NCBI GenBank assembly: GCA_003140315.1
Contig: PLJS01000205.1
Location: 1-48,067, forward strand
From: Hyphomicrobiales bacterium
GTDB taxonomy: Bacteria; Pseudomonadota; Alphaproteobacteria; Rhizobiales; Xanthobacteraceae
DNA: 48,067 nt
Reading direction: 5' to 3'
Shown in pieces: positions 17,419-22,351 of the stretch. The first letter of the stretch is position 1, and every line of letters starts with the position of its first letter. Position numbers and translations under genes: made by a program. The notes beneath the pieces were generated by a model, which was not told the origin of the DNA, searched no databases, and saw only the letters and a list, made by a program, of their open reading frames with translations.

Positions 17419-18108
17419 GTGGCCGGCTTTGGACGGATCGTATTGATTGGCGCGACCATCGCGGCCGGGCTCGGCACCGCGATCGTGCGCGCGCAAACCG
17501 TTCTGGAAGACCCCAAGAACTCGGCGAAGATCTTCGCCGGCACCTGCTCGGGCTGCCACAAGAGCCCGGCGGGTCTTGCCAAGCGCGGCGGCACGGCCGC
17601 ATTCCTGCGCGAGCACTACACGACCGGGCCGGAGATGAGCAGCGCGATGGCGGCTTATCTGGCGTCCGCCGGGAACGGGCCGCCTCCCAGCGCCACCAAG
17701 AAGAACGAAAAGCAGAAGGAAGCGGCCGCGCCGACCGCGACCAAGACCAATCCCGGGCAGAAGCAGATATCCACCGGGCCGACCGAGACAGGGCCCGAGG
17801 GTACCCGGCCGTCCCTGCGCGGCAAGCAGCAGAAGAACGCCAAGGGGCCGCCGAATGAGCCGGCTCAGGCCACCCCGCCGAACCGTGTGGCGGCGCGCCC
17901 GGCCGAGCCGACCCCGCTGCCGCCGGAGCGTCCGGCGCCGCCCCAACAGCCCGCGTCCGCGGCGCTCAGCACCAGTCCGGTGGCCAACCCGCAGCCCGAG
18001 CCTGCGGCACCGGCGGTCACGCTCGACCTGCCGCTGCCGCCATTCCCGAGCGAGCCGCCCGCCGACCTGCGTCAGCCCTCGGCTTTCTCCTCCGCGCCGC
18101 TGCCCTGA
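17419..18108 (+). CDS. c-type cytochrome-like protein with Pro/Ala-rich C-terminal tail
   Basis: GTG start; N-terminal signal-like segment; single haem motif [15 protein letters not shown]; long Pro-rich tail. Confidence 0.75.
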
Positions 18109-18683
18109 TCGTCTTCCGGCTGTTCGGGCTTCTCGAACACGGCCGCGGCCGCTGCGGCGGCTGCCGCATCGTCGGCGTCCTCGCCTCCCTCGCGATGTTG
18201 CGTCACGTTCTCGCCGCGCGCCTGGCGTTCGGCCTCGTCGGCGTTGCGTGCCACGTTGATGGTGATCGACACCTCGACTTCCGGGTGAAGCGCGACCGGC
18301 ACCTTGTGTAGGCCGACCATCTTGATCGGCGCATCGAGCGCGATCTGGTTGCGGCTGACCGTGAATCCGCCGTCGCTCAGGAGCGTTGCGATGTCGCGGC
18401 CCGACACCGAGCCGTAGAGTTGGCCGGTGTCAGACGCCTGCCGCGTCACGATGAAGCTCTTTCCGTCGAGCTTCTTGCCGATGCCTTCGGCCTCGCCCTT
18501 GGCCTCGAGATTGGTCGCCTCGAGTTGCGTCTTCATGCCCTCGAAGCGGCCCTTGTTCTCCTTGGTGGCGCGCAGCGCCTTGCCTTTCGGCAGCAGGAAA
18601 TTGCGTGCGAACCCGTCCTTGACGCGCACGACATCGCCCATCTGGCCGAACTTGGCGACGCGTTCGAGCAGAATGACTTCCAT
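18072..18683 (-). CDS. rplI: 50S ribosomal protein L9
   Basis: [40 protein letters not shown]; acidic/Ala-rich C-terminal extension. Confidence 0.97.
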
Positions 18684-18724: not shown

Positions 18725-19699
18725 TTAGACCGGTTTAGGAGGCGGGCCGCGCTTGGCGGCAAGCCGCGCACGCAGGGTGAACAGGGTCTCGATGAGGCCG
18801 AGCAGCGCCATCAGCAGGACCGGCCAGCCGAACAGGCCGAGCGTCAGGTAGGTGCCGGTGAGCATGAAGCCGCGGCCGTTGATCCCGACGGTGAGGGCGT
18901 GCATGACCGCGAGGCCGAGTAGTGCATAGGCGACGAGCAAGCTCGCGCTCAGGATGCCGGAGCCGATGCCGATCAGGTCGGGCAGGAACGTGCCGGCGAC
19001 CGCGAGCGCGAGCAGGGCTGGCGCATAGGACGGAAACGTCATCGCCGAAATCTTCGGCCAGGGCCGCTTGAGCCGGCCGGACAGGCGCACGATCAGGCCC
19101 GCGAGCCAAAGATTGATCAGGCTGGTCAAGGTCGAGAGCACCGCTGCGACCGGCGGGATCAGCACGACCAGGAGGTCGAGCACGCGGCCGGTATCGGATA
19201 TGCCGGGAAGCTGCAGCGGCGCGTCGTCGGCGGCGCCGGTCTGGGCGCGCAACACGCGCTCGAACACGCGCCGCAGGCCGCCCCGGAAGCTGTCGGCATC
19301 GAGGCCGAAATTCGGGATCGCGATCAGCACCACGACCGCGCCGAGGATCGCGGCCCACACGACCAGCCGGCCGACCGGATACCATTCGAGCGCTTCACCT
19401 GCGGGTCCGGCAACCGGCCGGGCGAGCAGCGCCAGATAGCCGAGCCACCACGCAGGGAGGCCTACGCCGAGCAGGAAGGCGAGCAGCAGGACCTGACCGA
19501 ACACCGCGGCGAGGCCGCCGGCGGCGACGAGGGCCGCCACGAGCCCGGCCACAGAGCTCCAGCCTATCGCCGCGATCATCAGCGGCAGCGCCGCCAGATA
19601 GAACAGCGCAACCGACAGGATCGAGCCGGACACCACGGACGCGAACAGGAGCGCCGACGCTGCGCCCGCCGCAATCCCGATGAGGACGATCTGCACCAT
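18725..19699 (-). CDS. DUF2232 domain-containing membrane protein
   Basis: Multi-TM protein in the rplI-rpsR interval, the usual DUF2232 position in alphaproteobacteria. Confidence 0.8.
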
Positions 19700-19809: not shown

Positions 19810-20061
19810 TTAGCGGATCACGTAAGGCAGCAGGCCGAGGAAGCGCGCGCGCTTGATCGCCTGCGCGAGCTCGCGCTGCTTCTTGGCCGAGACCGCGGTG
19901 ATGCGGCTCGGCACGATCTTGCCGCGCTCAGAGACGTAACGCTGCAGCAGCTTCACGTCCTTGTAGTCGATCTTCGGCGCGTTGGTGCCGGAGAACGGGC
20001 AGGTCTTGCGGCGGCGGAAGAACGGCCGGCGGGCAGGGGAGGATGACGATGTGAAGGCCAT
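19810..20061 (-). CDS. rpsR: 30S ribosomal protein S18
   Basis: [70 protein letters not shown]. Confidence 0.98.
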
Positions 20062-20066
20062 GATCC

Positions 20067-20579
20067 TTACTCCTGCGCCGCTGCGGGGGCGGGTTCGGCG
20101 TCCTCGCGCGGACGACGTTCGCCGCGGTCGCCACGATCGCCGCGGTCCCCACGGTCGCGATCGCCGCCGAAGCGGTCACCGCGGCCGCGATCGCCAAACC
20201 CGCGGTCGCGGTCGCCGAAGCGGCCACCGCGCTCGTCGCGGTCGCGATCGCGATCGACCTTGCGCATCATCGCCGAGGGGCCTTCCTCGTGCGCGTCGAC
20301 GCGCACCGTGATGTAGCGCAGCACGTCTTCGTTGATGCGCTGCTGGCGCTCGACCTCGGTCAGCGCGGCCGGCGGCGCGTCGACCCTCAGAAGGGTGAAG
20401 TGCGCCTTGCGGTTCTTGCGGATGCGGAAGGAGAGCGACTTGACGCCCCAGTATTCGGGCGGGTTGACGAGCTTTCCGCCGAGCCCTTCGATGACGCCGG
20501 TAAAGGCGGTCGTCATCTCCTCGACCTGCTGCGCGCTCAGATCCTGGCGCGCCATATAGACGTGTTCGTACAATGGCAT
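20067..20579 (-). CDS. rpsF: 30S ribosomal protein S6 with Arg/Asp/Gly-rich C-terminal extension
   Basis: [22 protein letters not shown]...[27 protein letters not shown]; tail [46 protein letters not shown]. Confidence 0.97.
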
Positions 20580-20756
20580 GATGGCCCTTTCCTAAGACTT
20601 CAGGCTCGATCCCAGCGCCTAGCCGCCTCGGCCTTTCGGGAAAGGCACGAATGCTCGAAGTGCGGGAACACGGGACGTCGGGCCGACTGGCCCTGCCGGG
20701 CGTCCCAAAGGGGACGCACAGCCGTCCGTTCAGCTCCCGGCCGGGATCGAGCGGAA
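20580..20756 (-). ncRNA. Candidate structured 5' leader of the rpsF-rpsR operon
   Basis: Perfect 10-bp long-range inverted repeat (20604-20613 gctcgatccc / 20743-20752 gggatcgagc) enclosing hairpins at 20700-20717 (gcgtccc-aaag-gggacgc) and 20631-20646 (gcctttcgggaaaggc). Confidence 0.5.
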
Positions 20757-20761
20757 GCGGC

Positions 20762-20790
20762 GTTATAGGGATTTTGGCCGCAAATGCAAG
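20762..20790 (-). promoter_or_regulatory. Putative sigma70-type promoter for rpsF operon
   Basis: Minus strand CTTGCA-N17-TATAAC, placing the start at about 20755, adjacent to the 5' arm of the leader stem. Confidence 0.5.
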
Positions 20791-20812: not shown

Positions 20813-22246
20813 TCAGGCCAACGGCACACTCTGGGCGTGACGGAACACGTTATCGGGGTCGACCGCCGCCTTGATCTGCTTGAGGCGAGGTAGGTTCGCG
20901 CCCCAATAGGCGGTCGGATAGTCGGGCAGCTCCACGTCCGGGTAATTCACATAGGCCGCGCCCGAGACATACGGGCGCATCGCCGCATAAAGCTCGCCGA
21001 TGCGCGTCGTCTCGCTGGCGCCGTTCGACGTCTTCGCCCAGTTGATGAAGTACTGGATCGAATAGAGCATGTCGCGGTGGCCGAACGCGGTCGCATCGCC
21101 CGGAACGCTACCAACCGCGCCGCCATAGGCATCGCAGATCGCGCCGACCGAGGGGCTTTTCAGCATTTCGCGGAACAACATCGCCATTCCGTTCTCGCTC
21201 ATCGGCGACTTCACGTAGTCGGACTTCGCCTTCTGGAACAGCGAAGGATAGGCCCAGCCCGAGACAGGCTTCTTCGGCACCTGGCGGGATGAAACCGTGA
21301 TCGTCGGCGTCGCGGCCGCGACCTTAGTCAGCTTGGCAAGCTCGTGCCGCACCTCGTCGGTGGACCCGGGCGACTGCCCGGAGCACGTCAACGCGACGCG
21401 TCCCTTGCCGCCGTTGGCGAGGACAAGGACGGTCGTGAGATTGGCCGGCGCGTGCGGGGCCCAGGCCTGCCAGGCCTGCATCAGCTTGACTGCGCTTGCC
21501 GGATTAAGCTTCCAGCTCACGCTGAAATGCACGATCTGCTGCACCTTGTGGATCGTAAAGCGCATGCGCGTGACCGCGCCGAAGCTGCCGCCACCGCCGC
21601 CGCGCAGCGCCCAGAACAGATCGGCATTGTTCTGCGCGTCCACCGTGATGATGTTGCTCTTCGCGTCCACGAGCTCGGCCCATTCGAGGTTGTCGCAAGC
21701 CAGACCGAAAGGCCGCCCCATGAAGCCGAAGCCGCCGCCGAGCGCATGCCCGGTGACCCCGACGGTCTCGCAGCTTCCGCCCGGGAAAGCGAAGCCGGCG
21801 GCGTTGATTTTCGCGTAGATGTCGCCGAGCGCGGCGCCGGCTCCGACCGTCATCGTCGCGCTCGCGATGTCGATGCGGTTCATCTGGCTGACGTCGATTG
21901 CCACGTCCTCGCTCTGCGAAAAGCCCTCATAACTGTGGCCGCCGGCGCGCAGCGCGAACGGCAAGCCGTTGTCGCGCGACCAGTTGATGACCGCCGCAAC
22001 GCCTTGGGGCGTCTTGCAAAGAGCGCGCAGCCGTGGCGCCTTGATGGTGCGCAGGTTGTAGGCGACCTGGAATTTCTTATAGCGCGCGCTGCCGGGCACC
22101 AGCAGTTCGGCGTCGCTCGCCGGTAAGGTCGGGAGCGTCGGGAGGGGAGCGGCTGCGGCCAGCGACGAGCGCGCCAGCAGCGGTGTTGCAGCGGCCGCCG
22201 CCATGGCCTTGAGGTAATCGCGTCGGCTGATCGGACTTGTTGGCAT
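20813..22246 (-). CDS. Tat-exported FAD-binding oxidoreductase (BBE-type C-terminus)
   Basis: Tat motif SRRDYLKAMAAAAATPLLA; FAD motif LRAGGHSYEGFSQ; C-terminal YVNYPDVELPDYPTAYWGANLPRLKQIKAAVDPDNVFRHAQS. Confidence 0.9.
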   Translation of the reverse strand: MPTSPISRRDYLKAMAAAAATPLLARSSLAAAAPLPTLPTLPASDAELLVPGSARYKKFQVAYNLRTIKAPRLRALCKTPQGVAAVINWSRDNGLPFALRAGGHSYEGFSQSEDVAIDVSQMNRIDIASATMTVGAGAALGDIYAKINAAGFAFPGGSCETVGVTGHALGGGFGFMGRPFGLACDNLEWAELVDAKSNIITVDAQNNADLFWALRGGGGGSFGAVTRMRFTIHKVQQIVHFSVSWKLNPASAVKLMQAWQAWAPHAPANLTTVLVLANGGKGRVALTCSGQSPGSTDEVRHELAKLTKVAAATPTITVSSRQVPKKPVSGWAYPSLFQKAKSDYVKSPMSENGMAMLFREMLKSPSVGAICDAYGGAVGSVPGDATAFGHRDMLYSIQYFINWAKTSNGASETTRIGELYAAMRPYVSGAAYVNYPDVELPDYPTAYWGANLPRLKQIKAAVDPDNVFRHAQSVPLA

Positions 22247-22351
22247 CGCCTCTGTGCCATCTCGGGTTGAAATCGCACTGTAGCCAAGGTGGCGGCGCCT
22301 TGACAGTCCCGTCATCGACGTGTCTTTCGGCGCGTTTTCCGGGGGTGGCAG

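Follow-up and report, generated by a model that had tools for sequence, protein, structure and literature searches.

Upstream of rpsF in the window (the whole stretch of 48,067 nucleotides that was analysed), we identified a structured RNA leader whose existence is close to certain. Its structure, in the 5′ UTR of an operon for ribosomal proteins, is conserved and covaries, as expected of an r-leader; the element is probably a cis-regulatory leader of new architecture for the rpsF-rpsR mRNA, modelled here as the means by which S6:S18 represses its own synthesis through sequestration of the Shine-Dalgarno (SD) sequence. The S6:S18 leader has been described as conspicuously absent in Alphaproteobacteria (Eckert and Weinberg 2020, PMC7247131); for one large order, the new leader is a defined candidate for this missing element: its coordinates and consensus are given below, its structure is supported by covariation, and it is sharply delimited from a second, canonical-like leader. 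It would also exemplify, in a clear-cut way, how one operon can exchange its regulatory RNA for a non-homologous one.

Architecture and covariation of the leader

The closest named relatives of the window rpsF are those of Xanthobacteraceae and other Hyphomicrobiales, and the gene is followed by rpsR and, on the same strand, by the genes for a DUF2232 membrane protein and L9 (see the table). At its C terminus, the S6 protein of the window extends into a long tail with abundant R, G and D residues (20067-20260). A berberine-bridge-type FAD oxidase gene (20813-22315) lies between fabD and rpsF and ends 22 nt before the -35 box; in S. meliloti, a divergent gene directly flanks the rpsF leader. 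The promoter-like boxes CTTGCA and TATAAC, separated by 17 nt (20790-20785 and 20767-20762), are present on the minus strand, in agreement with an earlier note on this DNA. A strict sigma-70 scan did not call this element upstream of the rpsF leader; a promoter-like TTG-N(20-22)-TA element was found at a near-constant distance upstream of the leader in 56 of 95 relatives, compared to 4.8 expected.

Features of the rpsF leader and its operon in the window, in the direction of transcription
Feature	Position	Strand	Basis and remarks
-35-like box CTTGCA	20785..20790	-	Exact position; TTG-N(20-22)-TA element kept in relatives
-10-like box TATAAC	20762..20767	-	Exact position; predicted transcription start ~20756-20753
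P1 5′ strand GCUCGAUCCCGGC	20740..20752	-	Fold; position check; pairing covaries
P2 5′ strand CGGGAGC	20733..20739	-	Alignment columns 4-10; two-sided changes in 4/7 pairs
UGA bulge	20730..20732	-	Start of near-invariant UGAAC
P3 5′ strand ACGGACG	20723..20729	-	Alignment columns 14-20
P4 hairpin, variable in length and sequence, contains GCGUCCC-CUUU-GGGACGC	20695..20722	-	Two-sided changes in 5/5 basal pairs
P5 hairpin GGGCC-AGUC-GGCCC	20680..20693	-	Two-sided changes in 5/5 pairs
P3 3′ strand CGUCCCGU, one bulged C (or G)	20670..20677	-	Alignment and tree-aware covariation
P2 3′ strand GUUCCCG	20663..20669	-	Two-sided changes (same pair set as P2 5′ strand)
P6 hairpin GCCUUUCCCGAAAGGC, carries the anti-SD	20631..20646	-	Sequence, fold
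Anti-SD CCUUUCC inside P6	20639..20645	-	P6:SD pairing beats swapped partners
Conserved linker GGCUnnGCGCC, here GGCUAGGCGCU	20614..20624	-	Ends in P1 3′ strand
P1 3′ strand GCUGGGAUCGAGC	20604..20616	-	Fold; position check; pairing covaries
Shine-Dalgarno GGAAAGG	20586..20592	-	6 nt before rpsF ATG; complementary to the anti-SD
rpsF (S6)	20067..20579	-	Pfam PF01250, 1.9e-22; ATG at 20579
rpsR (S18), next gene after rpsF	19810..20061	-	Pfam PF01084, 9.9e-26
DUF2232 membrane protein	18725..19699	-, same as rpsF	Pfam PF09991
rplI (L9)	18072..18683	-, same as rpsF	Pfam PF01281 + PF03948

The leader transcript folds at -93.4 kcal/mol (z = -3.67), and none of 200 shuffled sequences was as stable. 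In this fold the closing stem P1 encloses two arms, i.e., a P2/P3 arm that branches into P4 and P5, and the P6 hairpin. The consensus reads, from the 5′ end, P1 5′ strand, P2 (CGGgrgC / GYYYCCG), the UGA bulge, an A-U and a C-G pair with a bulged C or G on the opposite strand, P3 (GGANG / CN'UCC), and a three-way junction with the variable P4 and with P5 (GGrcc/ggyCC), followed by the P2 3′ strand, CCGCYYUC, P6, GGCUnnGCGCC, the P1 3′ strand, the SD and AUG. The UGAAC motif is near-invariant (92 of 96 sequences). Some leaders carry long insertions and retain the core; these lie between P1 and the SD (L073, L016) or inside P6 (L121).

In the alignment of 96 distinct core sequences, 97.5% of the cells are paired, and 18 of the 24 core pairs show two-sided changes (307 cells). 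None of 500 shuffled alignments approached this pairing on any measure, and slid partners were paired in 36-54%. To account for shared ancestry, we used our own implementation of the R-scape idea, in which substitutions are redistributed along the tree (100 replicates). Only 4 of approximately 7000 column pairs reached E<0.05; each of them belongs to the predicted structure, in P3 (pair 19-175, E<0.01, occurring as CG in 43 sequences, AU in 36, GC in 12 and UA in 2), P4 (one pair, E=0.02) and P5 (two pairs, E<0.01).

The earlier note had drawn attention to a perfect 10-bp complementarity between GCTCGATCCC (20752-20743) and GGGATCGAGC (20613-20604), ending 24 nt before the rpsF ATG (20579) and enclosing two hairpins, one of them GCGUCCC-CUUU-GGGACGC; the complementarity, the distance and both hairpins were all borne out. 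The emphasis on this stem holds in part: it is real, but it is only the outer portion of the 13-bp P1 (which includes one G-U pair), whereas P2-P5 form the conserved core, and the part that is informative about function is the anti-SD in P6. The same note had made its reading depend on compensatory change in the closing stem among relatives. As the length and register of P1 vary, we tested this by the duplex energy of own versus swapped partners. With one sequence from each of 33 families, the P1 flanks gained 3.2 kcal/mol in pairing with their own partner over pairing with partners taken from other families (mean z = -7.3), the controls stayed near 0, within noise, and with more sequences z ranged from -11 to -15; thus, P1 covaries. 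In the tree-aware test with a fixed register, column-wise covariation of P1 was not significant because the stem has indels.

Pairing of P6 with the Shine-Dalgarno and the proposed function

The same comparison was made for P6 and the SD. Over 33 families (one sequence per family), the SD paired 2.6 kcal/mol better with its own P6 than with swapped ones (mean z = -5.3), and over 74 sequences z was -7.5, whereas P6 against the coding-region start and other controls showed zero gain in the swapped-partner test. In several leaders the anti-SD and the SD change jointly, yielding the anti-SD/SD pairs GCCUUGUC/GACAAGGC (L115), GUCCUCU/AGAGGAC (L119), GGCCUGUC/GACAGGCC (L066), GCUUUUCUUGC/GCAAGAAAGGC (L120) and AGCUUCUC/GAGAAGCU (L125); in the window, the match is the 7-bp core only. 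Mimicry of an SD target by P6 for another reason could account for part of the P6:SD complementarity. The two competing pairings are nearly equal in energy, with medians of -17.5 kcal/mol for local P6 and -18.0 kcal/mol for anti-SD:SD, and we infer that this competition is the anatomy of a switch. In nested folds P6 and the SD are apart in most leaders, and only 11% of the predictions have anti-SD:SD pairing in more than half of the ensemble, so that the OFF state would depend on a pseudoknot or on assistance by a protein. P1 encloses the anti-SD but not the SD, and P6:SD pairing is therefore a pseudoknot unless P1 opens.

The placement before rpsF-rpsR, the unpaired UGAAC, the retained S18 contact residues and the anti-SD switch jointly make S6:S18 autorepression the best reading of this leader. 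Since all loci checked have the leader in front of rpsF-rpsR, S6:S18 is, by analogy with known leaders, quite likely to be the ligand, and SD sequestration is the moderately likely output predicted from the pairing model. When S6:S18 is scarce, P6 would fold on itself and leave the SD free. In excess, S6:S18 would bind a putative site at the conserved P2-P3 bulge and the P4-P5 junction, and the bound protein would shift the balance to anti-SD:SD pairing, in which case ribosomes could not start; this pairing would be a pseudoknot if P1 stays closed and an alternative fold if P1 opens. Transcription attenuation was considered and rejected, as there is no terminator-like site near the leader.

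Other ribosomal-protein leaders are known in which pseudoknots entrap the ribosome, and S6:S18 might likewise block initiation sterically or by trapping the ribosome next to P1, with anti-SD:SD pairing only setting the basal rate. The short distance from P1 to the ATG and the separation of the SD from P6 in most nested folds are compatible with such a mode of action, which we nevertheless consider unlikely, given that the strong P6/SD covariation across 33 families would hardly be expected from an incidental pairing. A different ligand, such as L9, either S18 or S6 without the other, or one from outside the operon, appears rather improbable. Although rplI and the DUF2232 gene also belong to the operon and no rRNA mimicry was found, the leader always precedes rpsF-rpsR, the rpsR product of the window retains RNA-contacting residues of E. 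coli S18 (K60 and R63), and the E. coli leader in the corresponding position has S6:S18 as its proven ligand (PMC4647458).

That the element is constitutive, with a fold that protects the mRNA or tunes ribosome loading in the absence of any ligand, would agree with the high stability of the fold and with the short stable leader RNA of S. meliloti (PMC2245857); however, the near-invariant unpaired UGAAC looks like a binding site and the two competing pairings of similar energy look like a switch, making a purely constitutive role improbable. Finally, it is highly improbable that a leader fragment acts in trans as an independent small RNA through its C-rich, anti-SD-like CCUUUCC loop: sra29/SmelC246 were indeed discovered as short RNAs, but the leader lacks a terminator-like site, and covariation of the anti-SD with the SD of the same gene argues for a role in cis.

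Two types of rpsF leader in Alphaproteobacteria

A DNA search with the window leader gave hits in 35 of the 37 genomes from the same family and in none of the 24 genomes that represented other families of the order. With a core covariance model built from 26 sequences of one family (R1), the leader was recovered in 156 of 249 Hyphomicrobiales genomes, and a model built from 96 sequences of relatives (R3) raised this to 215 of 249, with exactly one match each; the R1 figure therefore reflects a limit of sensitivity. R3 matched 10 of the 289 genomes in a class-wide sample, four of them from Hyphomicrobiales (including the window genome) and six from two other families, and 18 of the 150 genomes in a phylum-wide sample, all from Hyphomicrobiales. 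The two families outside the order are f70 (L125, L126, L243) and f61 (L127, L244, L245). Among named genomes with a related rpsF, 62 of 64 carry the leader, the two without it being an Erythrobacter and a Porphyrobacter. All inspected matches are located upstream of rpsF; S18 is present in all 64 named loci and lies downstream on the same strand in 63 (tblastn).

In 30 other alphaproteobacterial families, most of the rpsF upstream regions that were read share a second arrangement, CUCCUUGCC-hairpin-GGCUA...CCAUAAGGAG (L128-L157, e.g., L141, L142 and L134). None of 20 such loci tested matched Rfam at E<=0.5; a model of this canonical-like form (R2) finds the E. coli leader in the right place (20.7 bits, E = 0.012) and does not match the new leader. 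R2 matched 81 of the 289 class genomes, none of them in Hyphomicrobiales, and 1 of the 249 Hyphomicrobiales genomes. In that genome (G261), the canonical-like leader (L242) precedes a second, different rpsF on a second, foreign-looking contig (C28, the new leader being on C24), and we set it aside as likely contamination. Many class genomes match neither R2 nor R3; R2 is narrow and the search filters were strict. With the canonical-like leader in many other Alphaproteobacteria and the new one in Hyphomicrobiales, the two types replace each other, and the canonical-like leader may fill, for the rest of the class, the S6:S18 gap named in PMC7247131. Tentatively, we suggest that at the base of Hyphomicrobiales (and in two other families) the canonical leader was replaced by an unrelated RNA that would read the same dimer without rRNA mimicry and repress via a protein-driven P6 anti-SD:SD pseudoknot across P1.

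Comparison with known leaders

The earlier note had left two readings side by side: the known S6:S18 leader in an alphaproteobacterial form, or another architecture of ribosomal-protein leader. The latter is supported; for the former, neither Rfam nor R2 gave a match. In the comparison with the known S6:S18 leader model that the note had proposed, Rfam yielded no match in the window at E<=5 and none in 20 relatives at E<=0.1, and homology to the Rfam rpsF leader (RF02893) was accordingly rejected. The E. coli rpsF leader scored 110 bits against the same library, so that an element of this kind was within reach of the search. On sequence, model and architecture we thus reject a place for the new leader in the canonical family, although it is likely to work like the canonical one.

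The canonical leader (RF02893; E. coli, B. subtilis) and the new one share the gene, the operon (both directly precede rpsF of rpsF-rpsR), the place before the ATG, and an SD-complementary strand within a folded leader. They differ in that the new leader matches neither the canonical sequence nor its covariance model and has a topology of its own, consisting of a closing stem, an internal three-way junction and a separate anti-SD arm, with the SD outside the closing stem and without CCG in a bulge. The canonical CCUUGCC 5′ strand, which closes the entire element by pairing with the SD AAGGAG, was not found in the new leader. A CCG does occur at the P5/P3 junction in 82 of 96 sequences, but its two Cs form P5 pairs and covary with the bases opposite them. 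E. coli 16S rRNA has CCG at the S18 contact site where a Hyphomicrobiales relative (L250) has CCA (ACCAGUGGCG). The 16S gene is absent from the window's own assembly, and rRNA mimicry was assessed with the 16S of this relative: the longest word shared between the leader core and the S6:S18 region of Hyphomicrobiales 16S was no longer than that shared with shuffled cores, and mimicry was rejected.

The E. coli rpsF leader mediates translational repression of the gene by the S6:S18 dimer (PMC4647458). In S. meliloti, sra29 was detected by Northern blot at ~110 nt and described as 'a probable leader for rpsF' (PMC2245857), and deep sequencing identified the same RNA as SmelC246, a 187-nt mRNA-leader transcript (PMC2873474). 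sra29/SmelC246, which is tied to the leader described here by description rather than by sequence, is a short transcript that likewise comes from an rpsF leader; it differs in having been reported as a 5′ UTR only, without structure or regulation, and with all other genomes marked '-'. In the open-access literature searched, we found no description of the structure, spread or regulation of the leader. The unpublished 'promising motifs' of Weinberg mentioned in PMC7247131 possibly correspond to the new leader or to the canonical-like one, no sequence, structure or mechanism being given there. The S6:S18 r-leader of Chlorobi (PMC7247131), compared by description only, belongs to another phylum, and the new leader matches no Rfam family; what the two have in common is an apparent lineage-specific replacement of the canonical leader before rpsF by an RNA with no apparent likeness to rRNA.
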